From contig NZ_JAVDYB010000001.1 of NCBI RefSeq assembly GCF_031458235.1, positions 3,741,001-3,805,000 on the forward strand: 64,000 nucleotides of DNA. Reading direction: 5' to 3'. The notes beneath the pieces are model-generated. The model ran no database searches. It had not been told where the DNA came from and saw nothing but the letters and a program-made list of their open reading frames with translations. The stretch is from Catenuloplanes atrovinosus. Lineage in GTDB: Bacteria; Actinomycetota; Actinomycetes; Mycobacteriales; Micromonosporaceae. Made by a program: the position numbers and the translations under genes. This document shows, piece after piece, positions 807-50,795 of the stretch (position 1 is its first letter; each line of letters begins with the position of its first letter).

Positions 807-1163
807 ATGGCGAAGGTGTTGGTGGTCGACGACGAACCGGACCTGCGGTTCGTACATCGTCGCATCCTCGGCCGCGCCGGCCACGACGTCACCGAGGCCG
901 GCGACGGCGCGGCGGCGCTCCGGACCGTCCGGGAACTGCGGCCGGACCTGGTGGTCACGGACATGATGATGCCGGTCATGGGCGGCGACGAGCTGATCCG
1001 CCGGCTGCGGGCCGACCCGGCGACCGCGGACATCCCCATCCTGGTGATCAGCGGCGACTGGCAGCTCGCCTCCGGCGCGGACGCCGTGCTCGCCAAGCCG
1101 TGCCGCGGCCAGGACCTGATCAACGCGACCGAGAGCCTGCTACAGAGGGGACGGCAGGAGTGA
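807..1163 (+). CDS. Single-domain response regulator (CheY-like receiver)
   Basis: A 118-residue stand-alone receiver domain without output domain. The acidic pocket is VVDDE near residue 7, the phosphoacceptor is the aspartate of VTDMMMP near residue 53, the switch serine is in VISGD and the conserved lysine is in LAKPC. Its TGA stop overlaps the GTG start of the next gene (GTGA at 1160-1163), so the receiver and the KaiC-like ATPase are translationally coupled and probably act on one pathway. No histidine kinase is in the window; the input kinase must lie elsewhere. Confidence 0.93.
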   Translation: MAKVLVVDDEPDLRFVHRRILGRAGHDVTEAGDGAAALRTVRELRPDLVVTDMMMPVMGGDELIRRLRADPATADIPILVISGDWQLASGADAVLAKPCRGQDLINATESLLQRGRQE

Positions 1164-3441: not shown

Positions 3442-3525
3442 TTCACACCTTTTCCGGTGAGGCGGTTGATCGGCTACCACCGTGCGCCGGGTGCCGGGGT
3501 GCCGCCCAGACCCGCTTGTGGGTAT

Positions 3526-3536
3526 CCCTGGCAGGG
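3526..3536. promoter_or_regulatory. Candidate operator: perfect 11-bp palindrome
   Basis: CCCTG-G-CAGGG lies in the divergent region 40 bp before the regulator start and about 85 bp before the reductase start. It is the clearest dyad in this intergenic region and a plausible binding site for the adjacent HTH protein. Confidence 0.45.
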
Positions 3537-3575
3537 TCAGGCACCGGGCCGGGCCGGCCGCGCATACTCGATGTC

Positions 3576-4469
3576 ATGACGACCAGCCCGCTCGGCGAGT
3601 TCCTCGCGGCCCACCGCGCCCGCATCACCCCGGAGCAGGCCGGGCTGCCGCGCTACGGCGACCGGCGGCGCGTCGACGGGCTGCGGCGCGAGGAACTGGC
3701 GATGCTGGCCGGCGTCAGCTCCTCCTACTACACGCGCCTGGAGCAGGGGCAGTCCCGCAACGCCTCGCCGCAGGTGGTGGACGCGCTCGCCACCGCGCTG
3801 CGGCTGGACGAGACCGAGCGGCTGCACCTGCACCGGCTGGCCGCCGCGGAGACCCGCCCGCACCGGGTCCGCCGGCCGGCCGCGCAGACGCCGGATCCGG
3901 GGCTGGTGGAGCTGCTCGGCGCGATGTCGGCCGTACCGGCGATGGTGGTCGGGTCGCGCAAGGACGTGCTGGCGTGGAATCCGCTCGGTCACGCGCTGCT
4001 CGCCGGCCACCTGCCCGCGGACGCGCCGGCCCGGCCCGGCACCCGCCCGAACCTGGCCCGTCTGATCTTCCTCGATCCGGAGCTGCGCGAGCTGTTCGTG
4101 GACTGGCCGGCCAAGGCGCGCGCGGACGTCGGCTGCCTGCGCCTGTTCGCCGGTCAGTACCCGGACGACCCGGCGCTGGCCGAGCTGGTCGGGCAGTTGG
4201 CGGTGGGCAGCCCGGAGTTCGCGGCGTACTGGGCGGACCATCGTGTGGTGGCGTGCACGTCCTCCGCCTACGAACTGCGGCACCCGCTGGTCGGCCGGAT
4301 CACGGTGACCGAGCAGGCGCTGAGCACCAACGAGTCGATCGGCCAGCGGCTGGTCACCTACACCGCGCCGGGCGGTTCGCCGTCCGCTGAGGCGCTCGCG
4401 CTGCTCGCGCAGCTGGTCGGCGACGCGGCCCGGAGCCCGCGGCCGGTACCCGCCTCGTCCGGGGTCTGA
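3576..4469 (+). CDS. MmyB-like XRE-family transcriptional regulator
   Basis: A 297-residue regulator. The N-terminal helix-turn-helix runs from LGEFLAAHRARITPEQAG through RVDGLRREELAMLAGVSSSYYTRLEQG (residues 5-60). The C-terminal two thirds match the MmyB-like ligand-binding domain (PAS-like) family by length and by the pattern VVGSRKDVLAWNPLGHALL and NLARLIFLDPELRELF. Start at 3576 (MTTSP) was preferred over the upstream in-frame ATG at 3516 because the HTH begins directly after it. It probably controls the divergent aldo/keto reductase and itself. Confidence 0.9.
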   Translation: MTTSPLGEFLAAHRARITPEQAGLPRYGDRRRVDGLRREELAMLAGVSSSYYTRLEQGQSRNASPQVVDALATALRLDETERLHLHRLAAAETRPHRVRRPAAQTPDPGLVELLGAMSAVPAMVVGSRKDVLAWNPLGHALLAGHLPADAPARPGTRPNLARLIFLDPELRELFVDWPAKARADVGCLRLFAGQYPDDPALAELVGQLAVGSPEFAAYWADHRVVACTSSAYELRHPLVGRITVTEQALSTNESIGQRLVTYTAPGGSPSAEALALLAQLVGDAARSPRPVPASSGV

Positions 4470-4502
4470 CGGGCACCCCCTCCTCCCGCTACGCTGCCTC
4501 GC

Positions 4503-5207
4503 ATGCCGCTTCCCGCCGACGTGCAGAGCCGCCTCCGCGATCCCGGCTTCTGGCGTGCGTACCTCTTCGAGCCGCAGGACGAGGACGACGACCTTTACGA
4601 CGATCTCGACGAGGACGACGACGAGGACGCCTCGTTCGTCGTGGAGTTCCCGGTCGGTGACGGCTACGCGCTGGTCCTGGACATCGACGTGTCGATCAGG
4701 ATGGTGAACCTGGCGCTGCGCACGCCGGACAGCGACGAGACGCTGGAGCTGGGCTGGGACGACGAGGCGCACTGGCACCCGCACGCGCTCCGCTGGGTGG
4801 AGCTGGACCTCATCGCCCGCGCCGCCGCCGCGCTCGACCCCGGGCTGCCGCACCCCGGCCCGGTCGTCGCGCTCACGTCCCGGTTCGTCGTGCTGGCCGC
4901 CACCGAGCCCGGCGACCCCGACGACGTGGGCCCGCTCGACGAGATCACCCGGCTGCTCGACCACGCCTACGGTCCTCCCCCGGCCGGCGCGCCGTGGTGG
5001 CCGAGCGCGGACGACCTGCTGGACCGCATCGACGGCCGCGGCAACGGCGTGGTGTGGCGGCGTGACGCGGTCGGCGACTGGACGGTCGACCAGGACGAGA
5101 CGGACCCGGCCGGCTTCGCGCTCTACAGCACGCGCGTGCCCGGCGGCGAGTTCCCGTTCGCGCGGTGGCGCGAGCTGCTGGCCGCCGCCGCGGCCACGCT
5201 CACCTGA
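4503..5207 (+). CDS. Hypothetical protein with acidic N-terminal tract
   Basis: A 234-residue soluble protein I do not recognise. Residues 19-42 form a nearly uninterrupted Asp/Glu stretch (DEDDD, DLDEDDDEDA). The rest is a mixed alpha/beta protein with WDDEAHWHPHALRW and a C-terminal segment GEFPFARWRELLAAAAATL. No signal peptide or membrane segment. Codon use is as GC-rich as its neighbours and the frame is intact, so it is very likely real. Its 3' end overlaps by 8 bp the stop-bearing end of an ABC permease relic on the opposite strand. Confidence 0.75.
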   Translation: MPLPADVQSRLRDPGFWRAYLFEPQDEDDDLYDDLDEDDDEDASFVVEFPVGDGYALVLDIDVSIRMVNLALRTPDSDETLELGWDDEAHWHPHALRWVELDLIARAAAALDPGLPHPGPVVALTSRFVVLAATEPGDPDDVGPLDEITRLLDHAYGPPPAGAPWWPSADDLLDRIDGRGNGVVWRRDAVGDWTVDQDETDPAGFALYSTRVPGGEFPFARWRELLAAAAATLT

Positions 5208-5307
5208 GCCCGGTGGTGGCGATGCCCTTGACCGGGTACGTGTGGCCGGCGACGAAGAGGCCGAGCACCGGGGCGACGGAGACGAACGACATGGCGAACA
5301 GCTGACC
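5200..5307 (-). pseudogene. C-terminal relic of a carbohydrate ABC transporter permease
   Basis: Read on the minus strand, 5307 to 5200 encodes GQLFAMSFVSVAPVLGL followed by FVAGHTYPVKGIATTGLR and a TGA stop. This is the last membrane helix and the GIATTGL tail typical of MalG/LacG-type sugar permeases. Nothing recognisable as permease continues upstream: the remainder is gone and an IS4 element begins about 170 bp further on. Only 36 residues survive and no partner ATPase or binding protein is nearby, so this is a deletion scar, not a gene. Confidence 0.65.
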
Positions 5308-5470
5308 CCACCGGCTCCTAGCCCTCCGCCGCCTTCCGCTCGATCTGGACCGGATTCACCTGACCTGGCGATCGATGCGACGGAATCCGCCTAGCTCGCC
5401 GCGGATGGGCGGGCGGGGACGGGGTGTGGTGACCAGCGGCGGTGCCGGCAGGGAGGCCGGCCAACGGCCG

Positions 5471-5478
5471 ACCGGTGC
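5471..5478. repeat. Target-site duplication of the IS4 element, left copy
   Basis: ACCGGTGC flanks the element at 5471-5478 and again at 7031-7038. The following CC on the right also matches the first two bases of the left terminal repeat, so 8 bp is the conservative length. Confidence 0.85.
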
Positions 5479-5512
5479 CCAATGCCACTTAGCTTATTTT
5501 GATCTTGGTGGT
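5479..5512. repeat. Left terminal inverted repeat of IS4 element
   Basis: 34 bp, identical in inverse orientation to 6997-7030. It contains an AT-rich core (AGCTTATTTTGATC) that stands out from the surrounding GC-rich DNA. Confidence 0.93.
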
Positions 5513-5695
5513 GGGTGGAAGCGGTACGTGGCGGGGCTGGGGTGGCGGGTGGAGGCGGGTTCGTGGCGTTGTTTGGGTCGGTACATGTTGCGGCGGCAGC
5601 GTTTGACGGCGCGGGGGCAGGTGCGGTGGCGGCGGGCGGGGTTGAGTGTGCGGGTGATCTGGGCCCAGATGCGGGGTAGTCGGGTGGTCCAGTCT

Positions 5696-6961
5696 TCAGG
5701 GGGAAATGGCCGCTGAGCCGGTGGCTGAGCGGCGCGCGAGGCGTAGTGCGCGGGTGAAGCTGATCCGGTCGGGGTCGATCGCGGCAGCGTCGGCGGCGCG
5801 GGTGATCAGCACGGTCATGGCGTGCTGGATTAGTAGCCAGGCCCAGATTTCCTGGTGGACGAGGTCGGGCAGTTTCGAGCGCAGGATCCGGCCGGGCCCG
5901 CGGAGGTGGGTTTTGAGCTGGTCGTTGGCGGTTTCGTGTTCCCAGCGCAGGTGGTATGCCTCGGCGAGTTCGTCCGGGCCGGCCTGGGCGGGGTCGATGA
6001 TGGTGGTGGCCAGGGTGATCAGTTCGCTGGTGCCGTTACCACTACGGTCGGGTACGTCGTATGCGACGACTCGGGCGAGGTGGGCGGCGGGCAGGCCACG
6101 GTCGTTGATCGCGTCGTCGCAGGTGTCCAGGGTCCGGTCGGCCGCGGCGGCCAGGATCCGGTCCCGGCGGCCACCACGGATCGTCTTGTCCATCAACACG
6201 GTCAGATAGGTGCCGTCGGCCAAAACCTCGATCACCGGCAGCCGGATCCCGGCCTGGATCCGCCAGAGCAGGTCCGCGCCGGTCGCCTGCGCCCGGTCCC
6301 ACGCCGCGAACGAGTAAAACGACCGGTCCGCGGTCAGTAGTTCCCCGCGGCGCAGCCGTGCATACAACGGCATGGCCAGGGTCTGTTCCCCGACCGCATA
6401 CGCGCCGACCTCCGCCGCCAAAAACGCGTGCGTCCCGCACTCAGTCAACGCCACGACCCGGGCCTTCGGGAACGCCGACGGGCCACCACCGGTCCGGGAA
6501 TACCCGAACTCGGCCGCGTTCTCCGTCGTGTCCGGCACGTCCACGTCGAACCCGTCGATGGCAAGGACCCGCCAGTCCCGCAACCACGCACCTGACGTGA
6601 CCGCGGACGCGACCGGCCGGGCGACCCGCTCGAACACCTCCGCCAGCACATCCCGGCCCAGCCGCTTACGGGCCTGACTGATCCCACCGGCCGTCGGCGG
6701 CGACCACCCCGCGTCCCAGCACCCGAACCGATCCAACGCCCCGGTCACCTTCACCGCGACCTCGGCATAATCATCATCCGGGAACAGCCACAAACCCATC
6801 GTCAGATACGCCGTCACATGCGGCGGCAACTTCCCATCCGACCGCCTCGCCTGCACCCCACACTCCGCGACCGCGGCATCCACCACGTCCCGCGGCACCG
6901 CCGTGACCAGCACCCCGACCGACACCTGATCCGGCCGCACATCCACACCCGACACCACCAC
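5696..6961 (-). CDS. IS4-family DDE transposase
   Basis: A 421-residue transposase with the IS4 N-terminal domain (residues about 15-110) and a DDE RNase H-like domain. Catalytic aspartates are in VLAIDGFD and LLTADRSF; the third acidic residue is in the IS4 hallmark Y-2-R-3-E-6-K, seen exactly in YHLRWEHETANDQLK. The gene is uninterrupted and fills most of the element, so the copy appears capable of transposition. Start at 6961 lies 36 bp inside the right terminal repeat. Confidence 0.95.
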   Translation of the reverse strand: MVVSGVDVRPDQVSVGVLVTAVPRDVVDAAVAECGVQARRSDGKLPPHVTAYLTMGLWLFPDDDYAEVAVKVTGALDRFGCWDAGWSPPTAGGISQARKRLGRDVLAEVFERVARPVASAVTSGAWLRDWRVLAIDGFDVDVPDTTENAAEFGYSRTGGGPSAFPKARVVALTECGTHAFLAAEVGAYAVGEQTLAMPLYARLRRGELLTADRSFYSFAAWDRAQATGADLLWRIQAGIRLPVIEVLADGTYLTVLMDKTIRGGRRDRILAAAADRTLDTCDDAINDRGLPAAHLARVVAYDVPDRSGNGTSELITLATTIIDPAQAGPDELAEAYHLRWEHETANDQLKTHLRGPGRILRSKLPDLVHQEIWAWLLIQHAMTVLITRAADAAAIDPDRISFTRALRLARRSATGSAAISP

Positions 6962-24716: not shown

Positions 24717-27700
24717 TTGGCGGGCAACGGCGAACCGGTGGCGGTCGCGCGCATCCGCACCTCTGCCGGTCACCTCGTCGGCACCGGTTTCCTGGTCGCT
24801 TCGGACCTGGTGCTGACCTGTACCCACGTCGTTCGTGCCGCGCTGGCGGCTGACTTCACCGCGGAGCCGCCGGCCGACACCGTGGAACTCGAGTTTCCGA
24901 TGCCGCACGGGACCTTCCGCGCGCAGGGACACGTGGCCGCCTGGACGTCGGAGGAATCGGGCAGCCGCGGCGACACCGCCCTGCTGCGCCTGACCACCGC
25001 CCCGCCGCCGGAGCTGCCGGTCGCCCGTCTCGGCTCGACGGGGACGGCCCGCGACGAGCCGGTCCGGATCTACGGTCACGCGCTGCAGCGCGCCCACGGT
25101 CCGGGGGACGTGATCGTCGGCACGGCGGTCAGTGGGCGGGTCGGGCTGCTGCAGATCAACACCGAGGGCGGGCTGCAGGTCGAGCCGGGTTACAGCGGGT
25201 CACCGGTCTACCAGGCGTCCACCGGCCTGGTCGTGGGCATGGTCGTTCAGCGGATCACCGGCCGGTCCACCTGCAACGCCGTGCCGGTCGAGGCCGTTCT
25301 GGAGAACTTCCCCGAGCTGGCCGAGCCGGCACCGCGGGCCACGTCGCCGTACCGCGGGCTGGAACCGTTCGACGCACAGCACGCGGCCTGGTTCAAGGGG
25401 CGGGAGGCGCTCACCGAACGCCTTACCACCGCGATCACCAACCGGCCACTGCTGATTCTCGTGGGCTCGTCCGGCAGCGGCAAGTCCTCCGTGATCCGGG
25501 CCGGGCTGATCCCGGCCCTGCGGGCGCGGGGCGTCGAGGCCTTCACGGAACGGTTGTTGCTCCGCGACGCCGTGGAGAACGTGGTGGCCCGCCTGGTCCT
25601 GCGTGCGATCAAGCCGGACGCCGTGGCCGAGGAGGAACCCCGGATGGCCGAGCGCCTGCGCACCGATGCCATGAGCACCGTGTTCGGCTTGGCCGGGGCG
25701 CTCGACGAGCGGGCCGGCGACGGCGGTCTGCTGTTCTTCGTCGACCAGCTCGAGGAGGCGCCGCCGGAGGCGGTCGACACCGCGCTGCTGCTCCTCGACG
25801 CCCTGGTGCGAACCGCTCGGCGGCATCCGGACGGGACCGTGCGGGTCGCCGCGGCGGTCACCTTGCGTGCCGGGTTCCTCGAGAAGGTGGTCCGTGACGA
25901 GAGCAGCGGCGTGGTCGACCGGGCCGCGCTCGACGTCGTCTGGCCGATGCGGCGCGAGGAGTTGCGGGCCGCGGTACGAGCGGGCGGTGTGCGGTTCGAG
26001 AGCGGGCTGGACGAGGTGATCCTGGCCGACGCGGGCAGCGAGCCCGGGAAGCTGCCACTGATCGAGTTCACCCTGGAGCTGTTGTGGCAGCGCCGTCGCC
26101 GGCACGACGAACTGACGCTCGCCGCGTACGAGAGGCTGGGCGGGGTCTCGGGTGCGCTCGCCACCTACGCCGACCAGGTTCTCGACCAGCATCCGAAGGC
26201 CGGTCGCGAACGCATCCGTGCCGTGCTGACCGCGATGGCCAGACCGTCGGACGACGGCACCGGCTTCCGACGCCGGCCGCTCGAACTTCCCGATCACGGG
26301 TCACCGGACCGGGCCGTCATCGAGTTGCTGGCCGCCCGGCGACTGGTCGTGGTGACCGTGCCGCAGGACCGGCCCGCCTACGCCGAGCCGGCGCACCAGG
26401 CGCTGCTGGATGGCTGGCCCACCTTGCGCGGGTGGCTCGACGAGGACCGGGAGTTCCTGGCCTGGCACGATCAGGTGCGCGCCGACCGCCGGCGCTGGGT
26501 CGTGGCCGGCCGCGACCCGGACGCGCTGCTGCGCGGTACGGCCCTGGGCGAGGCGCTCCGCTGGACGGCCGAGCGAGGCGGTGAACTCGGCGAGGCGGAC
26601 CGCGCCTTCGTGGCCGAGAGCGGCGCCCGGGCGAGGCGTCGGCGGAATCTTCTGCGTGCCGTGGTCGCGGCCGTCTCGGTGCTGGCACTGGTCGCCGGCG
26701 TGTCCGCGGTGGTGGCCCTGCTTCAGAACGCGGAGCTGAGCGAGCGGGCGCGCGCCGCCGCGTCGCGCCAGTTCGCCTCGCATTCGCTGCGCTTCCGCGA
26801 CACCGACCCGGCGAAGGCCCTACAGTTCGCGCAGGCGGCCTGGCGGGCCGACGAAACCCCGGAGGCGTACGGGGCGCTGCTGACCCAGTATGCGAGGCTC
26901 GACCCCGTCGACCGGGTGTTCCCGTACCTCTGGGAGGGAACCGCCGAGCAGATTCAGGCCAGCGACGACGGCCGGGTAGTGACCGTGACCGGCGGCGAGA
27001 CCCCGGTCGTCTGGACCGGCCTGACCGGCGGGGCCCCGCAGCGGGTGCGGCTGGACGGGGTCGAAGCCGTCACACAGCTTCAGGTCGATCCGTCCGGCCG
27101 CTATGTGGCCGGTGCCGCCGACGACGGCACGGTCCTGGTGTGGGACCTCACGCGACCGCAGGCACCCCGCACGCTGGCGACCGCGTCCACCGCCGGCCAG
27201 GTGAGCCGGCTGATGGTCGAGCACATCGCGTTCAGTGACGACGGGACCCGGCTGGCGGTGTCCCGGACGGTCAACATTGCGGGCGGTGGTGTCCCCCCGG
27301 ACGCGAAGCCGGACGTGCGGATCTGGGACCTGACCGCCGGCGTCCCGGTCCCCTCGGCCGTGCCGCTCAGCAACGACTTCTTTCGCGCCTACCTCGGATC
27401 GCAGCCGGGGACCGTGGTGTTCCAGGAGGCCCAGGGCGTGGTCCTGTACGACCTCGCCTCCGGCCGGGCCCGCGCGTCCTATCGCGAGAGGAGTGCCCTG
27501 GTGGCCGACAACGGCGCGGCGGTGGCGGACTGCGAGAACGGGCAACTGCGGGTCCGGGACTCGGCGACCGGCAAGCTCCGCCGGAACACCGCGGTGGCCT
27601 GCGGCCTCATATCCGTCGACAGCACCACGAACGCGATCGTCAGCGACGGCAACGTGGTGGATCTGAGCACCGGTGTCGCCCACCGTACCTCTCTGCCGCC

Positions 27701-28883
27701 CGTCGTCGAAGGACTCACCGGGGGCCCACAGCCCGGGGTGAGTGTGGTGACCGCACCGGACGGCGGCCTGCTCGCCCTGGGCGTACGCGGTGAGGCGCTC
27801 TACCGGACGCGCCCGGCTCGGTTGCCTGACGGCGCGCTGCGGGAGGCCGACGACGTCGTCTGGCAAGCGCGGTGGATGGTGACACCGGACGGCAGGTACG
27901 CGATGACCGCCCGCACCTCGGGTGAGATCGAGCTGTCCGACGCGGCGACCGGCCGATTGATATCCCGCATCCGTACGTCGGAGAAGCAGGGATCCGGGTC
28001 CTGGGCTCCGCCGTTCGCCTTCACGCCGGACAGCCGTCACCTGATCGGCATCGGGGCCGACGCCCTGTCCGTCTACGCGCTGCCGACACTGACGCTCGAA
28101 CGGCGTATCCCGCTTCCGTTACCCGGCCAGGAATCGACGGCTCCCGGAGCCGGGGACGCGTCCAATGCCAGCTTCGCCGTGACGGGAGAGGATCGCGTCG
28201 TGGTGCTCCACCAGGGCGTACTCTCCTGGTTGACGATCAGCACGGGGCAGCCGGCCGGTCCGCCGCTCCCCCTTGCCGAAAGCGGCGTTTACGCGGGCTA
28301 TCAGGCCGTGTTCGCGGGGATCGCCGCCGTGCGGCCCGGCCATCCGCACGAGATCGCCGTCAACCGCGCGGTGGGAGTGCTGGAGATCTGGAGTCTCGAT
28401 CAGCGCGAGGTCGTGCGGACGCTCGACGTCGGCCCGGGAGCCGGTCCGGGGGCCGTCGTCTTCGACGCGAACGGCGAACAGGTGGCGGTGGCGACGAGTT
28501 CCGGTCTGCTGGAGGTCTGGGACGTCGATGACGAGAGCCTGCTGCGACCGGTGCCCGCGCCGACACACAGCGAACCTCTCGGGTTCACACCGGAGGGTTA
28601 CCTGATCGTCGAGGAAAGCACCGGGTCCGACAACAGTACGCAGGTCTGGGACGTCGATGCGGGGGTGACTCTCGCGGAGATACCGGTCGGCGGTCCGTAC
28701 GGTTCATGGCGATTGGACGGTGCCGTTCTGATCAGGCGGGTCTACGAGGTCGATCAGGCCATTCCGCTCGATCCCGGCCGCTGGGCCCAGCGGCTGTGCG
28801 AGCTCAACGACCGGCCCTTCACCGAAGGGGAGCGAGAGATCTTGCGCCGCGACGGGTTGTCCACCGACGCTCCGTGCCGATGA
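24717..28883 (+). CDS. Trypsin-like protease / nSTAND1 NTPase / beta-propeller fusion
   Basis: A 1388-residue modular protein. Residues 1-200 are a trypsin-like serine protease with the full triad: H in LTCTHVV (about 36), D in SRGDTALLRL (about 85), S in PGYSGSPVY (about 160). A linker with SPYRGLEPFDAQHAAWFKGR leads to the nSTAND1 NTPase: Walker A GSSGSGKSS (about 249), Walker B-like LLFFVDQLEEAP (about 342). A membrane segment (LLRAVVAAVSVLALVAGVSA, about 640-662) precedes an AAASRQFASHSL helix and a 600-residue WD40-like propeller (for example DGTVLVWDLTRP, VRIWDLTAG, GLLEVWDVDD). TTG start follows GGGGAG. STAND proteins oligomerise on a trigger sensed by the repeats and activate the N-terminal effector, here a protease. 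A Trypco1-like gene follows 30 bp later. Confidence 0.92.
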   Translation: MAGNGEPVAVARIRTSAGHLVGTGFLVASDLVLTCTHVVRAALAADFTAEPPADTVELEFPMPHGTFRAQGHVAAWTSEESGSRGDTALLRLTTAPPPELPVARLGSTGTARDEPVRIYGHALQRAHGPGDVIVGTAVSGRVGLLQINTEGGLQVEPGYSGSPVYQASTGLVVGMVVQRITGRSTCNAVPVEAVLENFPELAEPAPRATSPYRGLEPFDAQHAAWFKGREALTERLTTAITNRPLLILVGSSGSGKSSVIRAGLIPALRARGVEAFTERLLLRDAVENVVARLVLRAIKPDAVAEEEPRMAERLRTDAMSTVFGLAGALDERAGDGGLLFFVDQLEEAPPEAVDTALLLLDALVRTARRHPDGTVRVAAAVTLRAGFLEKVVRDESSGVVDRAALDVVWPMRREELRAAVRAGGVRFESGLDEVILADAGSEPGKLPLIEFTLELLWQRRRRHDELTLAAYERLGGVSGALATYADQVLDQHPKAGRERIRAVLTAMARPSDDGTGFRRRPLELPDHGSPDRAVIELLAARRLVVVTVPQDRPAYAEPAHQALLDGWPTLRGWLDEDREFLAWHDQVRADRRRWVVAGRDPDALLRGTALGEALRWTAERGGELGEADRAFVAESGARARRRRNLLRAVVAAVSVLALVAGVSAVVALLQNAELSERARAAASRQFASHSLRFRDTDPAKALQFAQAAWRADETPEAYGALLTQYARLDPVDRVFPYLWEGTAEQIQASDDGRVVTVTGGETPVVWTGLTGGAPQRVRLDGVEAVTQLQVDPSGRYVAGAADDGTVLVWDLTRPQAPRTLATASTAGQVSRLMVEHIAFSDDGTRLAVSRTVNIAGGGVPPDAKPDVRIWDLTAGVPVPSAVPLSNDFFRAYLGSQPGTVVFQEAQGVVLYDLASGRARASYRERSALVADNGAAVADCENGQLRVRDSATGKLRRNTAVACGLISVDSTTNAIVSDGNVVDLSTGVAHRTSLPPVVEGLTGGPQPGVSVVTAPDGGLLALGVRGEALYRTRPARLPDGALREADDVVWQARWMVTPDGRYAMTARTSGEIELSDAATGRLISRIRTSEKQGSGSWAPPFAFTPDSRHLIGIGADALSVYALPTLTLERRIPLPLPGQESTAPGAGDASNASFAVTGEDRVVVLHQGVLSWLTISTGQPAGPPLPLAESGVYAGYQAVFAGIAAVRPGHPHEIAVNRAVGVLEIWSLDQREVVRTLDVGPGAGPGAVVFDANGEQVAVATSSGLLEVWDVDDESLLRPVPAPTHSEPLGFTPEGYLIVEESTGSDNSTQVWDVDAGVTLAEIPVGGPYGSWRLDGAVLIRRVYEVDQAIPLDPGRWAQRLCELNDRPFTEGEREILRRDGLSTDAPCR

Positions 28884-36437: not shown

Positions 36438-38849
36438 CTAGATGCCTAGAGCGGTCAGGTGAGCGCGGATCTGGTCGGCTCCTGGCAGGCCGAGGTCGAT
36501 GTGGATGGCGAAGGCATGCCGGTAGTGCCGGCGGGCAAGGGCCCGGTTACCTCGGGCTCGATGAGCGTGACCGAGGCCGGTGTGGGCGCGGGCCTGTTGG
36601 ACCCGGGCGCCGGTCTCGACAGCGAGGGTGTGGGCCGCGGTGTGGTGGCGGAATGCGATGTCCGGCCGGCCCGCGGCCTGAGCTGCCTCACCGAGTCCGT
36701 TGTACGTGAACACCCGGCCCTCCCGGTGGCCGATCTGCTCGTACAGGGCTCCAGCCGCCTGGTGGCGCTTCGTAGCTTCGGTGGGCTGCCCGAGGCGGAG
36801 GAAGAGCATGCCGAGGCTGTCCAGCGTGCTGGCTTCGGCCAGGAGGTTGCCGGTCTCTCGGGACAGGCGCAGGGCCTCGTCGAGGTAGCCGGTGGACAGA
36901 CCGTACCGTCCCTGCTGCAGTTCGAGGTCGCCAAGGCAGATCAACGGATATGCCTCGCCGATGCGGTTTCCGGCCCGGCGGTACAACCGGTGGGCGGCTT
37001 TCAGGTGTGCGATCGCCGACGGGTACCGGCCGCGCAATCTGTCGATCACGCCCAGGTTGGTACAGGCACGGGCCTGGCCGTCGAGATCATTATTCCGCCG
37101 GTACAGGCGCAGTGCCTGCCGCAGCTGGTCGGTCGCCTGCTCGAGCCGGCCCAATTGGCCGAGCACGCCGCCGAGGCCGAGGCGCGCATGAGCTTTCGCG
37201 GTCGGATCATCCGTCTGGAGAGCACAGCCATGGATGGCCAACGCGTCGGTGAGGTATCCCCCGTCGAGATAGCCGAACAGGATGCGAGAGAGTCGCGCCG
37301 TGTGGGCCGGCCAGCCGTGCGCGGCGGCGTGCGCGGCGACGGCGATCAGAGTAGGCCGTTCGCTGTCCAACCAGCCCCGGGCAAGCTCCCGGCCGGTGAG
37401 ACAGGGAACGTGTGTGCTGGCCTGGCCGATGTGAGGCCGCAGGTGGGCGTCGAAAGGGTGCAGACTGTTCACGGCGGCCGCGGTCGCGGTGAGGTAATAG
37501 TCGAAGAGGCGGGTCAGCGCGGCGCGGCGGGCGGCCGGACGGTCTTCGTCGGTGGCTTGCGTGGTGGCGTAGGCGCGAACGAGGTCGTGGAAGGAGTACC
37601 GTCCCGGTACGGCCTGCTGCAGCAGATGATCGCGGTGAAGTCGGTCGAGATCGGCCCGAACGGTGGTCGGATCGGTGCCGACGATGGCCGCGGCGGCGTA
37701 GGCGTCGAAGTCCTGGCCCGGGTGCAGGGCGAGCAGCCGGAGTGTCCGTCGCTGGTCGGCGGGCAGGTGCTGGTAGGACAGGTGGAGGGCGACCTCGACG
37801 CCGGCATCCAGGCGCCGCTGGTGATGGCGTTCGTCGAGCCGGTCGGCGTGGTCGGTCAACGTCCAGCCCGGTGTGCCGCTGATGTGCCCGGTAGTCAGGC
37901 TCAGGGCCAGGGGGAGATAGTCGCACCGCCGGGCGATCCGCGCGGCAGCGTGCGGATCGGGGCCCATAGGTGCGTCGGGGACGGCCCGGGTGAGAAACGC
38001 CAGCGCCTCATCGGGGGTGAACACGTCCACCGGCAGGTGGACCGCGGAACGCAGGCCGGTGAGGCGGCGCCGGCTGGTGATCAGGGTGAGACACCCCGGG
38101 AGGGTCGCGAGCAGCGGGCGGACCTGCTCGGTGGAGGCGGCGTTGTCCAGCACAACCAGGGCCCGGATACCGGCGAGGTGGTCACGGTAGGCGGCGGTGC
38201 GCCCGGCGAGGTCGTGCGGAATCCGCTGGCCGGGCATCCCGAGCAGGCGCAGGAATCCGTCCAGGACCGCAGCCGGGTCCGCCGGCGGCTGCGCGGGGTC
38301 GGGATCGAAGCCGCGCACGTTGACGAAGAGCACCCGCTCGAACGGCTGCTGCCGGTGGAGCAGGTGTCCGGCACGCACCGCGAGCTCGGTCTTGCCGACC
38401 CCGGCCATGCCCTCGATCGCGACGACCGCCACCGCATGCTCGTCCTGTCCCGCGTGACGGATCCGGTCGAGTTCATCGGTGCGGCCGGTGAACCAGGTCG
38501 GTTCCGGCGGGAGGCGGTCCCGCACACGGACCTGGGACACCGCCTCGATCTCCCCGTCCACCACACGTAGGGCCTGCCGCCACGCCGTCACGTACCCGGT
38601 ATCGGGATGCAGCGCATGGACCACCGCCACCACCAGGTCGGCGTCCATCCGCCGCCGGCCCGGCCGGAAGCAGTACGCGACGGTGGACCTGGACACCAGC
38701 TCACGGGCCGGCCGGCCCGCCGCGGTCCAGGCCGCGTTCACCCGGCCTTTGATCGTCTCGTAGGACGGATTACCGGCCCAGGCCTTCAGCCGGCGCAGCT
38801 GTTCGACGAGATCATCAAGGCTGGCGGCCCCCGAGGGGTTGGGCAGCAT
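36438..38849 (-). CDS. NB-ARC/TPR STAND regulator
   Basis: An 803-residue STAND protein. The N-terminal 110 residues (LDDLVEQLRRLKAWAGNPSY, LVSRSTVAYCFRPGRRRMDA) form a helix-turn-helix-like domain common in actinobacterial NB-ARC regulators. NB-ARC follows: IEGMAGVGKTELAV (Walker A), IRALVVLDNAAST (Walker B), LTLITSRRRL (sensor), with a winged-helix stretch VALHLSYQHLPADQRRTLRL. The C-terminal 300 residues are TPR repeats (ARACTNLGVIDRLRGRYPSA, LAEASTLDSLGMLFLRLGQP). ATG at 38849 has AGGAG 7 bp upstream; the frame is open further upstream but non-coding in character. Role: signal-responsive regulator or conflict sensor. Confidence 0.88.
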   Translation of the reverse strand: MLPNPSGAASLDDLVEQLRRLKAWAGNPSYETIKGRVNAAWTAAGRPARELVSRSTVAYCFRPGRRRMDADLVVAVVHALHPDTGYVTAWRQALRVVDGEIEAVSQVRVRDRLPPEPTWFTGRTDELDRIRHAGQDEHAVAVVAIEGMAGVGKTELAVRAGHLLHRQQPFERVLFVNVRGFDPDPAQPPADPAAVLDGFLRLLGMPGQRIPHDLAGRTAAYRDHLAGIRALVVLDNAASTEQVRPLLATLPGCLTLITSRRRLTGLRSAVHLPVDVFTPDEALAFLTRAVPDAPMGPDPHAAARIARRCDYLPLALSLTTGHISGTPGWTLTDHADRLDERHHQRRLDAGVEVALHLSYQHLPADQRRTLRLLALHPGQDFDAYAAAAIVGTDPTTVRADLDRLHRDHLLQQAVPGRYSFHDLVRAYATTQATDEDRPAARRAALTRLFDYYLTATAAAVNSLHPFDAHLRPHIGQASTHVPCLTGRELARGWLDSERPTLIAVAAHAAAHGWPAHTARLSRILFGYLDGGYLTDALAIHGCALQTDDPTAKAHARLGLGGVLGQLGRLEQATDQLRQALRLYRRNNDLDGQARACTNLGVIDRLRGRYPSAIAHLKAAHRLYRRAGNRIGEAYPLICLGDLELQQGRYGLSTGYLDEALRLSRETGNLLAEASTLDSLGMLFLRLGQPTEATKRHQAAGALYEQIGHREGRVFTYNGLGEAAQAAGRPDIAFRHHTAAHTLAVETGARVQQARAHTGLGHAHRARGNRALARRHYRHAFAIHIDLGLPGADQIRAHLTALGI

Positions 38850-39370
38850 CGCGAACTCCTGCGCCGACGTGGTCACGGGGTCACCCGGCACGGCATCGCC
38901 CCCATCAGCCGGATCCGATGTCCGTGTCGATGTTAGCGCTCGCGGCGCTGGCGGCAGGTCACACGGGACGGTCGCCGTGATCGTCCGGATCGCCGGCGGC
39001 CGGCCCGCGGTCGGCATCCGAATTCGTCCGAAGTTCGCTGTCGCCCGGGGATCGACGTCCAACACTGAGCGGGCCGTCCACCGGTGAACGACCCGCGGAT
39101 CATCCGACGAAGGGACGTGCCACATGCGAATCGCTCCGCGGCCGATTCCCTCACCACGTCGGCGGCGGCCGCCACGCTGCTCATCGGCGGCGCGACCGGT
39201 GCCGACGTCTCGCAGCCGACCGGGAGCCCGCAGCACGGCGTACAAGCCGTGGGCGCAAGGCCCCCACGGCTGCTGGTGCGGATGACGCCGGGTCGCCAGC
39301 CTCGGACAGCGGTGGGCCGGAACGCCGGCCCGATGTCCATGTCGATCGGTACAAGACGGAGGGATGCTTC
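38850..39370. other. Intergenic region between divergent STAND and PG-binding genes
   Basis: 520 bp. A plus frame from 39084 with SAADSLTTSAAAATLLIGGA has no support beyond being open. Promoters of both divergent genes should lie here. Confidence 0.35.
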
Positions 39371-43933: not shown

Positions 43934-44194
43934 TCGGACTCCTCCTGGGACGGCGATCCGACTCCTCAGGATTACATAGATGGCTCTGAATGTGTATGCG
44001 GCGCCGGAGCGCAATTCCGGTCACCATCGGGGGCCTGGTAGACAAAGTGGTTCACGTGGTGGGGCGGGCGGTGACAGCCACACCGGCGACGCCGCGTTCG
44101 AGCTGGCCCTGAGTGGCGCTCAGCGCCCGACGTCGCGATGGTCAACGGTCGAAAACCGGTAGCTCGTCGGCGCACCCGAGGCGATCATGGCAGC
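43934..44194. other. Intergenic region between divergent genes
   Basis: 260 bp holding promoters of the tandem esterase (minus) and the HflX-N-like gene (plus). No clear dyad seen. Confidence 0.3.
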
Positions 44195-44605
44195 GTGAAG
44201 CAGTACCGGGACCTCGGCGACCCACTCGATGGTGCCGATGTCGTACTCATCGGCCTGTTCTCGGCCAAGGAGAAGCAGTACGAGGCCAGGCTGGACGAAT
44301 TCGCCGGCCTGGTGGAGGCCCGCGGCGGACGGGTGGTGGCCCGGTTTGTCCAGCGCCGGGGGGCCTCCGACCGGTGGAAGCGGCGCCCCGGCGGATCGCT
44401 GCGAATGTCGCAGCCCTTCTCACGCCGCACACTGCTGACCCATGGCAAGCTCCGCGAGATCGCCCAGGCGTGCCGGGAGTCGCAGATAGACGCCGCAGTC
44501 TTCGTGAACACTCTGACACATCGCCAGCGAAGCGTCTTGGCCGGTATTCTCGGCTGCCTCGTTTTCAGCGGCGAAGACCTGGCCGTCCACGGGGAGACCG
44601 GGTAG
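44195..44605 (+). CDS. Stand-alone HflX N-terminal-like domain protein
   Basis: 136 residues from the GTG at 44195. DVVLIGLFSAKEKQYEARLD, EFAGLVEARGGRVVARFVQR, RTLLTHGKLREIAQACRESQ and AAVFVNTLTHRQRSVLAGIL follow the N-terminal domain of HflX GTPases (nucleotide-binding alpha/beta domain that recognises stalled ribosomes), but the GTPase domain is absent. Typical HflX is over 400 residues. It precedes a TIR/STAND gene by about 310 bp in the same direction. Function unknown; possibly a ribosome or nucleotide sensor. Confidence 0.72.
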   Translation: MKQYRDLGDPLDGADVVLIGLFSAKEKQYEARLDEFAGLVEARGGRVVARFVQRRGASDRWKRRPGGSLRMSQPFSRRTLLTHGKLREIAQACRESQIDAAVFVNTLTHRQRSVLAGILGCLVFSGEDLAVHGETG

Positions 44606-44916
44606 TTTCGTCCGCCGAAGCCGGCCCCGTTCGGGGCAGAAGACAGCCGTCGGCAAGTCGCTGCGCGACCGGTTCCGCATCAAGATCCCGCCTACCGGAC
44701 AACAGCGACGTCCGCGTATCGCTTGGATCGCGGCAGATCCGTATATCTGATCATGACTCGGGCAGCTATGGCGTCGATCTTCGAAACGGTGAATTGCCGT
44801 GCTCGGCTGTTCTTCCGCTTCTCTCGTGCTGTCGTGTGTTGACCTATTCTGTGTGCGTTGTGGGTGGTGTGGGCTCGGTAGCATGGGCGTTCGCTGGTTG
44901 CCGGGGAGGCTTTGGG
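44606..44916. other. Intergenic region before TIR/STAND gene
   Basis: 310 bp, AT-richer towards 44800-44860, presumably containing the promoter for the TIR gene. The long open frame running through it has no coding character before the GTG at 44917. Confidence 0.35.
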
Positions 44917-47900
44917 GTGGCTGGAGAGCGGTCGGGGCTGGATTTCTTCATCAGTTATGCGAGTGAGAATCGCGTGTGGGCTGAGTGGATCTCGGTGCAG
45001 CTTGAAGGGGCGGGGTACTCGACGCGGTATCAGGCAGCGGATTTCCGGCCGGGCCGGGATTTCGTGCATGAGATGCAGGCGGCGATTGTGGCCGCGGAGC
45101 GGACGATCGCGGTGTTGTCGCCGGCATATCTGGTGTCGGAATTCGGCGAGTCGGAGTGGCGCGCGGCGTTCGCGCGGGATCCGACGGGTGAACTCGGTGT
45201 GCTGATCCCGGTGTTGGTGCAGCCGTGTGAGCCGCCGGGTTTGCTGGCCAGCCGGGTGTATGTGGACCTGACCGAGGTCGGTGAGGTGGGTGCGCGGCGG
45301 AAGTTGCTGGCGGCGGTGGACACCGACCGGCCACGGCCGGCGTCGGCGCCTTATCCGGGGCGGGGTGGTGTGCCGCGGCCGGTGCGGTTTCCCGGCGCCG
45401 GGCCGGAGGTGGCGAATCTGCCGCAGCGGAATCTGTTGTTCACCGGCCGGGACGGCTTGGTGCGGCAGGTGTATGAGGGGTTGCGGTCACCGGGGCCGGC
45501 GGCGGTGGTGTCGGGGGCGTTGCACGGGCTGGGTGGGGTGGGTAAGACCACCCTGGCGGTCGAGTACGCGTACCGGTTCCGCAGTGATTACGACGTGGTG
45601 TGGTGGATCGACGCGGAGCAGCCCGCGACCGTGGTGGGGCAGTTGGCCGCGCTCGGCCGGGAGTTGGGTTTGACGGTGCCGGTCGACGATCCGGATGTGG
45701 TCGCGGCCGTGTTCGGGCGGTTGCAGGGTTTGGACCGGTGGCTGCTGATCTTTGATAACGCGGAGCATCCGTCGTCGCTTGCCGGTCTGATCCCGGCCGG
45801 TGGTGGGGGGCATGTGCTGGTGACCTCGCGCTGGCCGGATTGGCGGGGGCGGGCGCGCACGGTGCAGGTGGGTGTGTGGCGGCGGGCGGAGTCGGTGGCT
45901 TTCCTGCGGTCCCGGACCCGGCACGACGACGAACGGTTGCTGTCGCAGTTGGCGGAGTTGGTGGGTGACCTGCCGCTGGCGGTGGAAGAGGCCGCGGCCT
46001 ATCTGGAACAGACCGGTGAAGATTTGGCCGTCTACGTCGGGCTGGTCCGCGACCGTGCCCGGGAGATCTTCGCACCAGCCGTGGCAGAGGAGGGTGTGGG
46101 TACGCCGGGGGACGTTGATGGGCGGCGGGTGGCCACGGTGTGGTCGTTGTCGCTGGAACGGGTCCATACGACGCAGCCGCTGGCCGAGCGACTGCTGACG
46201 GTGTTGGCGTTTCTGGCGCCGCAGGTTCCGCGGGGCTTGGTCGCTGAGGCGCCGGACCTGTTGCCGCCGGAGCTTGGTGTGGTGGTGTCGGACCGGCTGG
46301 CCTACAACCGGCTGCTGGAGGCCGCGGGCCGGTACGCGCTGATCGAGCTGACCCCGGCCCATACCGAGATGCACCGCTTGGTTCAGACCGTCGTGCAGGC
46401 CCGCCTCGACCCGGTCGAGGAAGCCCGCTGGGCCGGTGTCGCGATCACACTGGTGCGTGCGCTGTTTCCGGACGACAGCTGGGAGGTGGAGCGCTGGGAT
46501 GACTGCCGGCGTCTGCTGCCACAGGTGCTGGCCGTGGCCGAGCACGCCGAACGCCTGCACGTCGGCGAAGACGACGCGGGCTTCCTGCTGCACCGCGCGT
46601 CCGCCTATCTACGTGAGTCGGGTCAGTACCGGCAAGCCGAACCACTCGCCCGACGCGCCCTGCACCTCACCAGCACCGCATCCGGCCCCGAACACCCCGA
46701 CACCGCCTGGCGCCACGACGAACTCGGCCGCGTCTTACAGGATCTGGGCCAACTGGACGAGGCCCACACCCAGTTCGAGCAGGCCCTGGCGATCGGCCTG
46801 GCCACCTTCGGCCCCGACCACCCGGCCATTGGTATCTGGCGCAACAACCTCGGCCGCGTGTTGCAGGAGTTGGGCCGGCTGGACGAGGCCCACGCCCAGT
46901 TGGAGCTGGCGCTGACGATCGGCCTGGCCGCACTCGGTCCCGACCATCCTCACATCGGCATCTGGCGCGGCAATCTCGGCGGCGTGTTGCAGGAGTTGGG
47001 CCGGCTGGACGAGGCCCACACCCAGTTAGAGCAGGCCCTGACGATCAGCCTGGCCACCCTCGGCCCCAACCACCCCGACATCGGCATCTGGCGCAACAAC
47101 CTCGGCCGCGTGTTGCAGGCGCTGGGCCGACTCGACGAGGCCCACACCCAGTTCGAGCAGGCCCTGACCATCGGCCTGGCCACCCTCGGTCCCGACCACC
47201 CGGAGATCGGCACCTGGCGCGGCAACCTCGGCCGCGTGTTGCAGGCGCTGGGCCGACTCGACGAGGCCCACACCCAGTTGGAGCAGGCCCTGACGATCAG
47301 CCTGGCCGCCCTCGGCCCCGACCACCCCGAAATCGGCATCCGGCGCGGCAACCTCGGCGACGTGTTGCAGGATCTAGGCCGGCTGGACGAGGCCCACACC
47401 CAATACGAGCAGGCCCTGACCATCAGCCTGGCCGCCCTCGGCCCCAACCACCCGCACATCGGCAGTTGGCGCAACAACCTCGGCAGCGTGTTGCAGTCGC
47501 TGGGCCGGCTGGACGAGGCCCACACCCAATACGAGCAGGCCCTGACCATCAGCCTGGCCGCCCTCGGCCCCAACCACCCCGACATCGGCATCCGGCGCAG
47601 CAACCTCGGCGGCGTGTTGCAGGAACTGGGCCGGCTGGACGAGGCCCGCGCTCAATACGAGCAGGCCCTGACCGTCGGCCTGGCCGCCCTCGGCCCCAAC
47701 CACCCCGACATCGGCATCCGGCGCGGCAACCTCGGCAGCGTGTTGCAGGAACTGGGCCGGCTGGACGAGGCCCACACCCAGTACGAGCAGGCCCTGACCA
47801 TCAGCCTGGCCGCCCTCGGCCCCAACCACCCGACCATCGGTATCTGGCGCAGCAACCTCGGCGGCGTGTTGCAGGAACTGGGCCGACTGGACGAGGCCCA

Positions 47901-48072
47901 CACCCAGTACGAGCAGGCCCTGACCATCAGCCTGGCCGCCCTCGGCCCCAACCACCCACAGACCACCGCCATCCGCGCCCACCTCACGCTACTCGACGAT
48001 CACCGCCATCAAGCGGCGCAGCCACCGGAGCCACTCCGGGGAGCAGACAGTGAGTCCGATAAAGGAGGCTGA
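44917..48072 (+). CDS. TIR / NB-ARC / TPR STAND protein
   Basis: 1051 residues from the GTG at 44917, which has GGGGAGG 7 bp upstream. Residues 5-130 are a TIR domain (LDFFISYASENRVWAEWISV, TIAVLSPAYLVSEFGESEWR; the candidate NADase glutamate lies in GESEW). NB-ARC: LHGLGGVGKTTLAVEYAY (Walker A near 205), RWLLIFDNAEHP (Walker B), GHVLVTSRW, then a winged helix. From about residue 598 come ten consecutive 42-residue TPRs with consensus GIWRxNLGxVLQELGRLDEA and HTQxEQALTISLAALGPNHP. Expected to sense a ligand by the repeats, oligomerise and activate TIR, which in bacterial immunity consumes NAD+ or makes signals. Confidence 0.9.
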   Translation: MAGERSGLDFFISYASENRVWAEWISVQLEGAGYSTRYQAADFRPGRDFVHEMQAAIVAAERTIAVLSPAYLVSEFGESEWRAAFARDPTGELGVLIPVLVQPCEPPGLLASRVYVDLTEVGEVGARRKLLAAVDTDRPRPASAPYPGRGGVPRPVRFPGAGPEVANLPQRNLLFTGRDGLVRQVYEGLRSPGPAAVVSGALHGLGGVGKTTLAVEYAYRFRSDYDVVWWIDAEQPATVVGQLAALGRELGLTVPVDDPDVVAAVFGRLQGLDRWLLIFDNAEHPSSLAGLIPAGGGGHVLVTSRWPDWRGRARTVQVGVWRRAESVAFLRSRTRHDDERLLSQLAELVGDLPLAVEEAAAYLEQTGEDLAVYVGLVRDRAREIFAPAVAEEGVGTPGDVDGRRVATVWSLSLERVHTTQPLAERLLTVLAFLAPQVPRGLVAEAPDLLPPELGVVVSDRLAYNRLLEAAGRYALIELTPAHTEMHRLVQTVVQARLDPVEEARWAGVAITLVRALFPDDSWEVERWDDCRRLLPQVLAVAEHAERLHVGEDDAGFLLHRASAYLRESGQYRQAEPLARRALHLTSTASGPEHPDTAWRHDELGRVLQDLGQLDEAHTQFEQALAIGLATFGPDHPAIGIWRNNLGRVLQELGRLDEAHAQLELALTIGLAALGPDHPHIGIWRGNLGGVLQELGRLDEAHTQLEQALTISLATLGPNHPDIGIWRNNLGRVLQALGRLDEAHTQFEQALTIGLATLGPDHPEIGTWRGNLGRVLQALGRLDEAHTQLEQALTISLAALGPDHPEIGIRRGNLGDVLQDLGRLDEAHTQYEQALTISLAALGPNHPHIGSWRNNLGSVLQSLGRLDEAHTQYEQALTISLAALGPNHPDIGIRRSNLGGVLQELGRLDEARAQYEQALTVGLAALGPNHPDIGIRRGNLGSVLQELGRLDEAHTQYEQALTISLAALGPNHPTIGIWRSNLGGVLQELGRLDEAHTQYEQALTISLAALGPNHPQTTAIRAHLTLLDDHRHQAAQPPEPLRGADSESDKGG
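46711..47982 (+). repeat. Ten tandem 126-bp TPR-coding repeats
   Basis: Ten adjacent units of 126 bp encode the TPR sensor of the TIR protein. Units 6-10 are nearly identical at the DNA level over long stretches (for example GGCCGGCTGGACGAGGCCCA in each), the first units more diverged. Such near-identity is typical of arrays that expand and contract by recombination. Confidence 0.88.
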
Positions 48073-48572
48073 ATCTCGGCGAGGCTCGTGCAGGCACCGG
48101 CAGGTCCGGATGGCGGCCACCCTGCGGACCCGGCTGCACCGTGTGGCACTCGCTTAAGGCTGGCGCGTGCTTGGACAGCGGCAGATCCGTGGGGTTCCAG
48201 TCGTACAGCAATGTGCATTGTCGTGGGAGCTGATCGAGCCGTTGCTGCCGACGTGGCGGGAGAATCGTCCGTGGCCGGTGCGGTGCCGGTGTGCCTGCGG
48301 ACGCTCCTGCCGGGCCACAGGCTTGCGGCCTGTGGGGCGTGGTCGGCGTGGTCGCGGCGGATCTTCTCGTGCTCGTCCCGGTCGAGGTCGGCGTCGTCGT
48401 TCGCGGTGAGCGTCGCGCCGGCGGCTACCCATCGGCATCCCGAGCACGGGCGCCGGTCGGGCCGATGTCGGCCCGACCGGTGTACCGTGCCGCTCCGGGG
48501 CGGGCTCGGGCGTTTCTGAGTTCGGTCCTGGCCGTCAGCGGCGTGCGGGAGCCGCGGCCGGGCTGATCGGCG
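48073..48572. other. Degenerate region with an IS5-type transposase fragment
   Basis: 500 bp without an intact gene. On the plus strand 48221-48270 reads SWELIEPLLPTWRENRPW, the conserved N-terminus of IS5-family transposases (WxLIEPLLP), after which the frame is lost. Left-over of an old insertion. Confidence 0.55.
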
Positions 48573-49649: not shown

Positions 49650-50795
49650 CTAGCCCTTCATGATCGGGGAGGAGTAGACCGAGGAGACGCGGAAGCCGGC
49701 GAGCCAGTCCGTCAGGCGCCTGGCCTCCGCATGAAGCAGTTCCTCCTCCACCGCGGACACCGGCTCGGCCAGCCGGATGCGCACCGCGCCGGACGGGTCC
49801 TGGATCCAGGCGCCGACGACGCGGCCGTTCACCCAGGCGGTGGTGCCGGCGTTGCCGCGGGTGTCGAAGATCAGGTCGCGGTGGGGGCCGAGGTAGAAGT
49901 CGCGGGACTGCCAGCCCATCACGGTCGGGTCGAGCACGGGGAGCAGGGCGGCCCACGGGGCGGGGGCGGGCACCTCGTCGAGGTCGTCGGGGAGGAGCCA
50001 GCCGGTGCGGCCGGAGTCGAGGGTGACCTGCTCGGCGGCGAGGGTGGTGAGGGCGGCGCGGACGGTGGACTTGGTGCCGCCGAGCCACCACACCAGGTCG
50101 TCCTCGGTGCCGGGGCCGAACGACCAGAGCCAGCGGCGGATGATCTCGCGGTATCCGTCGGCGGCGGTCGGCCAGCTGGGGGACGTGCCGAGCCAGTCGG
50201 CCATCGGGGTCCAGCGGGGGCGGGAGACGTGCCAGCCGCCGGTGTTGGTGCCGCGCACGAGGTCGGCGGTGAGGCCGAGGTGGTTGAGGACGCGGCCGGC
50301 GACGGGGAGGCCGGCGGCCTTGACGTCGATCATGGGTACGGCGAGGCGGATCTCCTGTGCGGTGCGGCCGCCGGGCACGCCGTCCAGCGCGGCCAGCACC
50401 TCGGCGCGTGCCCGGTCCAGCCAGGCGCCGCCGTCGGGGGTGAGGCCGTCGGTGACCACGTCCTTGGCGAGGCGGGCGCGCTCGGTGGCGGCGACCCGCG
50501 CGGACGCGCTCGGCCAGGCGAAGGGCAGCAGGTCGCGCGGGAAGACGAAGAGGGTGCGCCGCATCGCGAGCTGCTTGACCAGGGTGCGGTCGGCGTGGAG
50601 TGCGCGGTCCAAATCGTCGGGCTTCAGCGTGTCCATCCGCGCCCAGCAGGACAGGTAGACCGTGGGCGGCTCGGTGGCGTGCAGCACGGTCACGGCGCGG
50701 GCGGCGTCCTCCACGGTGGTGGCGCGGAACGGCGGGGCCAGGGCGTGGCGGACGCCCAGCCGGGCGCGCCGCTCATGATCGGACACGTGACGCAT
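49650..50795 (-). CDS. Winged-helix DNA-binding / AlkZ-like protein
   Basis: 381 residues of the HTH_42/AlkZ-like superfamily (crosslink DNA glycosylase relatives). Characteristic stretches: VLHATEPPTVYLSCWARMDT, LHADRTLVKQLAMRRTLFVF, YREIIRRWLWSFGPGTEDDL with WWLGG, and DPTVMGWQSRDFYLGPHRDL. The Q-x-D/Q catalytic motif of AlkZ is not seen at the N-terminal position (TEPP instead), so glycosylase activity is doubtful; it may bind DNA structures. Start ATG at 50795. Confidence 0.83.
   Translation of the reverse strand: MRHVSDHERRARLGVRHALAPPFRATTVEDAARAVTVLHATEPPTVYLSCWARMDTLKPDDLDRALHADRTLVKQLAMRRTLFVFPRDLLPFAWPSASARVAATERARLAKDVVTDGLTPDGGAWLDRARAEVLAALDGVPGGRTAQEIRLAVPMIDVKAAGLPVAGRVLNHLGLTADLVRGTNTGGWHVSRPRWTPMADWLGTSPSWPTAADGYREIIRRWLWSFGPGTEDDLVWWLGGTKSTVRAALTTLAAEQVTLDSGRTGWLLPDDLDEVPAPAPWAALLPVLDPTVMGWQSRDFYLGPHRDLIFDTRGNAGTTAWVNGRVVGAWIQDPSGAVRIRLAEPVSAVEEELLHAEARRLTDWLAGFRVSSVYSSPIMKG

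Follow-up and report, generated by a model that had tools for sequence, protein, structure and literature searches.

Gene A, on the forward strand at 44917..48072 of the window (the whole 64-kb stretch of Catenuloplanes atrovinosus DNA analysed here), encodes, judging from its sequence, a bacterial NLR-like (STAND) receptor: its TIR domain holds the glutamate column, its Walker A motif is intact and its superhelical sensor consists of tetratricopeptide repeats (TPRs). Probably, this sensor has been diversified by the exchange of repeat units, and the receptor has been separated from a membrane partner. The same genome (one contig, 8.9 Mb) carries a second receptor copy, paralogue B. Alignment of the two copies shows that they share an ancestor and are alike upstream of the array and at its ends, whereas array length (ten units in A, seven in B) and interior order differ. 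The features of gene A and the evidence for each are as follows, where NOD stands for nucleotide-binding oligomerisation domain.

44917..48072, +, receptor gene A, TIR-NB-ARC-TPR, 1051 aa (reading of the open reading frame (ORF), Pfam, NCBIfam)
44730..48055, +, segment common to A and paralogue B, comprising the promoter region and the receptor gene (homology ends at ...GACAGTGAGT)
44944..45285, +, TIR domain (TIR_2, residues 10-123; Pfam 102.5 bits, cut-off 28)
45154..45156, +, Glu80, candidate catalytic glutamate (column aligned with a glutamate of the bacterial TIR 7uxr)
45409..46530, +, NB-ARC/winged-helix NOD module (NF040586 over residues 168-538; structure matches)
45526..45552, +, Walker A motif GLGGVGKTT, residues 204-212 (sequence)
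46534..46722, +, arm and one diverged lead-in TPR (the lead-in matches array units at only 57-62 of 126 bases)
46723..47982, +, array of ten 126-bp/42-aa TPR units (Tandem Repeats Finder (TRF), register alignment, model)
47983..48072, +, C-terminal tail (the corresponding end in paralogue B overlaps the start of a SLATT-like partner gene)

The proposal of a sequence-only reading that this is a TIR-STAND protein with a TPR sensor is borne out by the Pfam and NCBIfam domains, the predicted model and its structure matches. Translation starts at a GTG codon with GGGGAGG upstream at a spacing of 7 nt, which is kept in paralogue B. A glutamate occupies the Glu80 column in 12/12 aligned TIRs and is a candidate for the catalytic residue known from other TIR domains. 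G204, G207, G209 and K210 of the Walker A motif are invariant among 12 aligned relatives. The Pfam NB-ARC profile alone reaches 21.2 bits, just under its cut-off of 23.5, and the NOD of the model matches Apaf-1 (3sfz, Z 23.6) and plant NRC1 (8bv0, Z 23.2), with plant NRC2 also among the matches (VIA-align). TPR_12 and TPR_10 each match 11 stretches of the protein (Pfam). The predicted structure, modelled from 12 sequences, has a mean predicted local distance difference test (pLDDT) value of 84.5; the array lies mostly above 90 and shows a regular helix pair per unit, whereas the TIR domain modelled on its own was unusable (pLDDT 38). Structure matches of the array include APPBP2, Rap proteins, MalT domain III and LGN (VIA-align). 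The TPRs of kinesin light chain (3nf1), which bind cargo peptides, likewise have 42-residue units and align with the array in an equal-length register over 184 residues; being functionally unrelated to gene A, they serve as a structural guide only. TPR-like repeats of 42 residues with high internal identity form a structural class.

Probable rearrangement of the array

TRF reports one strong array at 46723-47957 (period 126, 9.8 copies, 89% matches, 0% indels). It scores 1803, more than chance would give, whereas none of the other three arrays listed in the window scores above 53. In register, the ten in-frame 126-bp units described by the sequence-only reading are confirmed over 46723-47982. 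The same reading had called several units almost identical and the array young, and neither description held up: any two units agree at 97-117 of their 126 bases (77-93%) and at 26-39 of their 42 residues, none is a copy of another, the best pair reaches 117/126 and synonymous codons differ at 15%. The array is thus real and strong yet contains no near-identical copies. Mean amino-acid identity among the units is 79.3%, and only some pairs exceed 85%. At same-residue positions, the synonymous codon difference among A units is 0.153; local codon usage would predict 0.443, and the lead-in unit differs from the array by 0.391. The synonymous codons that the units have in common beyond this expectation show that they resemble each other through recent common descent and not through codon bias.

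Upstream of the array, A and B are 93-99% identical at the nucleotide level (five segments measured). The overall ratio of nonsynonymous to synonymous rates (dN/dS) is 0.20 there, and on this measure both copies are under constraint. The end units correspond (A1-B1, 116/126 bases; A10-B7, 115/126 bases). The interiors are not collinear: the best collinear score (796) is no better than that obtained with A's interior shuffled (797.7 +- 3.4; p = 0.75), which rules out that A and B differ solely because three whole units were lost. Pairwise homoplasy index (PHI) tests, which disregard within-codon linkage, suggest recombination between units (p = 0.0005-0.021 over nine settings). The interior synonymous difference is 31/183 in the best collinear fit, against 55/556 in the pre-array region (Fisher p = 0.016). 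From the non-collinear interiors, the PHI tests and the common synonymous codons, we infer that units were exchanged, gained or lost after the A/B split. The earlier suggestion of a recombining, changing array is upheld on these grounds and by the seven units of B against the ten of A.

A 13-bp direct repeat, GCGGCAGATCCGT, is found around the shared segment, at 44730-44742 and 48178-48190. One copy forms the left border of the segment, the other lies ~125 bp past its right border, and a single copy is present at B. In a control, two matches at one mismatch occurred in 4/100 shuffles. The repeat is possibly a trace of how the A/B segment was copied.

Concave positions and relatives in other genomes

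The distribution of variation within the units was analysed for positions 2, 5, 9, 12, 13, 33 and 34, which were taken from PMC1261162; a passage of that paper names these seven TPR positions as the most variable and concave. Among A units, the concave positions have a residue entropy of 1.05 and the remaining ones an entropy of 0.28 (p = 0.0019); pairwise dN/dS is 1.25-1.59 at the former versus 0.21-0.32 at the latter, with the last units excluded from dN/dS and from the last eight entropy columns. A conservative minimum-change count gives a nonsynonymous to synonymous ratio (N/S) of 0.69-1.13 at the concave positions versus 0.21-0.30 elsewhere (Fisher p 0.057-0.075). The same entropy test on seven arrays from 89 screened sources, lead units included, yields p < 0.025 in five and not in two; the strongest concave variability is that of L105, whose array is old (p = 0.0017), while the youngest array, L111, shows none (p = 0.40). 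Since old arrays vary there too, groove variability is a general TPR property and, as far as these sequences go, does not establish positive selection. The earlier idea of a diversified ligand specificity is therefore retained in part: variation does concentrate at the canonical concave positions, whereas positive selection is not established (conservative count p ~ 0.06).

At E <= 1e-120, pre-array relatives occur in 4/354 genomes of the family, and at E <= 1e-110 in 2/397 genomes of the order sample and 1/394 of the class sample, the own genome being included each time. Within the genus, a search at E <= 1e-60 matches 4/5 genomes (own included), the best match outside the own genome being 38% identical. 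Viral contigs yielded no homologue of either the receptor or its partner. The three family relatives, from other genera, carry 4, 5 and 5 units. In a tree of units, G333, G306 and G045 are each represented by a single clade (support 0.75, 0.97 and 0.37, respectively), with G045's clade inside the A/B group. The units of G333 are partly homogenised (79% at the nucleotide level), while G045 and G306 have old ones (61% and 56%). Within a single receptor type, arrays are therefore static and diverged in certain lineages but homogenised elsewhere. The array of L111 (G001:C1:4999000-5018000, minus strand) belongs to a congeneric NB-ARC-TPR gene with no TIR in the printed ORF start. It is built from units of types a and b, arranged as a', b, b, a, b, a, a, b, a''; all four b units agree at 126/126 bases, and the three a units are identical as well. 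Unlike that of gene A, this array is genuinely young.

The SLATT-like partner gene

At locus B, the partner gene overlaps the stop codon of the receptor gene and encodes a protein of 147 aa with two clear hydrophobic stretches. The A/B homology ends at GACAGTGAGT, which contains the start codon of the partner. A tblastn search of the window found no partner, leaving gene A without a SLATT-like neighbour, and the sole partner homologue of the own genome at E <= 1e-8 sits at B. Comparison of the two loci shows that A either lost the partner gene or was copied without it. The assignment to SLATT is weak by sequence: among the eight close members (B's own and seven proteins at least 56% identical to it), SLATT_5 matches 2/8 (best E = 7.8e-5) and DUF4231 matches 2/8; B's own protein reaches only 17.2 bits with DUF4231 (cut-off 24.7), and no solved structure matched the SLATT-like alignment at E <= 1.

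Partner homologues at E <= 1e-8 occur in 16/354 family genomes (20 rows). All eight close members in these 354 genomes lie at most 1.5 kb from a TIR_2 gene. The TIR gene is 5' of the partner in B, G045, G265, G039, G034 and G208, at a distance of 1.4-1.5 kb in G265 and G208, and 3' of it in G135 and G002; the homologue 3' of the G045 receptor is 67% identical. The accompanying TIR proteins vary in architecture, comprising NB-ARC-TPR, NB-ARC, NACHT and AAA-TPR proteins and one with TIR only. In the stretches retrieved around eight distant homologues (L147-L154), the TIR profile detected no TIR gene; a ninth (G080) lies outside this comparison. Around 7298-7705 of L155 (G034:C1:1978000-1988000), 27 bp separate a TIR-NB-ARC-TPR gene from a downstream SLATT-like partner that is broken into three frames. 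Beyond the family, a Methylobacterium indicum plasmid (L157, NZ_AP024150.1) carries, at 475-6802, a DUF4231/SLATT_1 gene between two TPR-rich genes annotated fxsT, one with an N-terminal TIR_2 domain and the other with DUF4062.

Neighbourhoods combining TIR and SLATT have been described in firmicute phages (PMC9503650) and in GTPase-centric systems (PMC7159879), and B and its relatives likewise pair a TIR with a two-transmembrane SLATT-like protein. SLATT is predicted, in a passage of the former paper, to be an effector of membrane permeability regulated by ADP-ribose derivatives and, in one of the latter, to be a nucleotide-responsive pore. In contrast to those neighbourhoods, the TIR here is part of a STAND receptor that has a TPR array, and A stands without a partner. 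The link between a TIR-STAND receptor and a SLATT-like membrane protein, together with a natural partnerless copy, offers a way to separate NAD+ depletion from membrane signalling.

Proposed mechanism, rival explanations and surroundings

Most likely, and by analogy, the receptor is a ligand-gated NLR-like switch with TIR catalysis as its output and the SLATT-like protein as an amplifier at locus B; TPR-sensor STANDs such as MalT and PH0952 are presented as ligand-gated switches in a passage of PMC6468293. Units would be exchanged, added or lost through unequal crossing-over or gene conversion, and their exchange would re-deal the residues of the concave groove, such that a different peptide or protein may be bound. 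Following the pattern of TPR-sensor STANDs and NLRs, ligand binding would free the autoinhibition between nucleotide-binding domain, arm and sensor, the NOD would swap ADP for ATP and oligomerise, and the clustered TIRs would cleave NAD+. At locus B, the product may open the SLATT-like membrane protein, while A could kill by NAD+ depletion or signal in trans to B's partner, giving two sensors and one effector. A split system, in which interchangeable recombining TIR-STAND sensors feed a single SLATT-like pore as a bacterial counterpart of the het-d/het-e families, is a doubtful extension of this scheme; if true, a second example in compact form would be the M. indicum plasmid, where a SLATT gene is flanked by two receptor genes.

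Several observations weigh against a sensor diversified by unit exchange in a system with a membrane partner. The near identity of A and B upstream of the array could stem from gene conversion, in which case the array differences are older, and within-codon linkage is disregarded by the PHI tests. The samples hold one genome per species, and the comparison runs between species and between paralogues. The borderline conservative count at the concave positions and the contrast between L105 and L111 point the same way. The partner is missing 3' of both A and the G306 receptor, and G306 and G333 have no partner match genome-wide at E <= 1e-8. An annotated DUF4231/SLATT gene occurs in 0/9 annotated plasmid neighbourhoods of related TIRs (a tenth carried no annotation; the sample comprised 17 records, with H21, H22, H23, H29 and H32 left out), and neither H18 (the same as H8) nor the record of H30, covered only at another place (H11), has such a neighbour. 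Finally, PADLOC gave no match to a specific model; what it returned was a generic TPR model and some TIR matches that were weak and partial.

A rival explanation is neutral turnover, in which repetitive TPR DNA simply recombines, 4-10 units are tolerated and the concave positions are the least constrained ones. This explanation is possible but not the favoured one: it fits the general variability of concave TPR positions (PMC1261162), their variation in L105 and L065, both old arrays, and a conservative concave N/S that is not clearly above 1, while the strong constraint outside the concave set (N/S 0.21-0.30) and the maintenance of both copies (pre-array dN/dS 0.20) speak against it. That same ratio, reflecting mostly synonymous pre-array changes between A and B, together with 1051 open codons and the conserved TIR glutamate and Walker A motif, makes it unlikely that A is a decaying duplicate which lost its partner on copying and left only B functional, even though the A/B homology runs no further than the start codon of the partner and the genome's sole partner homologue is at B. 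It is still less probable that A is a transcriptional or developmental STAND regulator of the AfsR or MalT kind rather than a defence protein; actinomycete NB-ARC-TPR proteins do include AfsR-type regulators, one of them at 36438-38861 in the window, but Pfam found no DNA-binding domain in the gene A protein, its N-terminus is a TIR instead, and paralogue B is coupled to a SLATT-like protein.

The name FxsT, which NCBIfam gives to the protein, raises a further candidate role, namely that of the TPR partner of the FxSxx-COOH peptide system, working in peptide processing. NF040586 (FxsT) scores 598 bits on the gene A protein (cut-off 300), and a passage of PMC7159879 on actinobacterial conflict systems places a TIR-AP-ATPase-TPR gene with the same domain order downstream of FxSxx systems. 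However, FxsC had no match in the own genome at E <= 0.001, in a search whose control was positive in 3/4 genomes holding FxsT-like loci, and the best match to the radical SAM enzyme FxsB reached 77.2 bits (cut-off 370); membership in an FxSxx system is rejected on these grounds. In pairwise alignments, many FxsT-like TIRs lack the glutamate in the aligned column, whereas all 12 of this group keep it. The FxsT role is thus highly improbable and, barring a divergent FxSxx peptide and maturase, refuted for this genome.

Receptor diversification by exchange of units, which remains the preferred reading of gene A, has a close parallel in fungal NLRs (het-d/het-e with WD40 repeats; Podospora NB-ARC-TPR). 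Passages of PMC4986451 and PMC12222747 report high internal conservation (HIC), repeat-number polymorphism and positive selection for the repeats of these proteins, TPRs included. Similar tandem repeats, varying number, variation at binding positions and evidence of recombination are common to both, but gene A is bacterial, has a TIR effector and was compared through paralogues in one genome, whereas the fungal genes were compared through alleles. With a mean of 79.3%, the units of gene A also lie below the more than 85% repeat identity over at least 100 aa that PMC4986451, in the passage concerned, takes as HIC. The antiviral STANDs Avs and the bacterial NACHT proteins (bNACHT), cited in a passage of PMC10907252, likewise combine an N-terminal effector, an NTPase and a C-terminal repeat sensor; gene A, known here from sequence alone, differs by its NB-ARC NTPase and matched no Avs or NACHT model of PADLOC. 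Another diversification route, described in the same paper for multicellular bacteria, is the hypermutation of sensors by retroelements. While repeat shuffling diversifies fungal NLR sensors, an equivalent in bacterial NLR-like proteins is unsettled in the literature searched, which largely comprised sources other than subscription journals and yielded no paper that treats recombination in the TPR arrays of bacterial TIR-STANDs. A and B, whose TIR and NOD are almost alike while their arrays count 10 and 7 units, form a natural pair that is suited to asking whether the array alone sets the trigger.

Regarding the surroundings of gene A, a transposase-like reading directly 3' of it received no support from Pfam. 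The flanking genes show no synteny in the genus: the esterase occurs in 2/5 genomes and the gene at 49650-50795 in 5/5, and in G001, the sole other genome with both, the two are far apart. Just upstream of the receptor, at 44138-44605 (+), a short ORF comprises only an HflX N-terminal domain (GTP-bdg_N, 40.2 bits) without the GTPase domain and is either a domain relic or a stand-alone gene. The window encodes two further STAND proteins, a trypsin-nSTAND1-WD40 protein at 24717-28883 (+) and an AfsR/HaaT-like NB-ARC-TPR protein at 36438-38861 (-).

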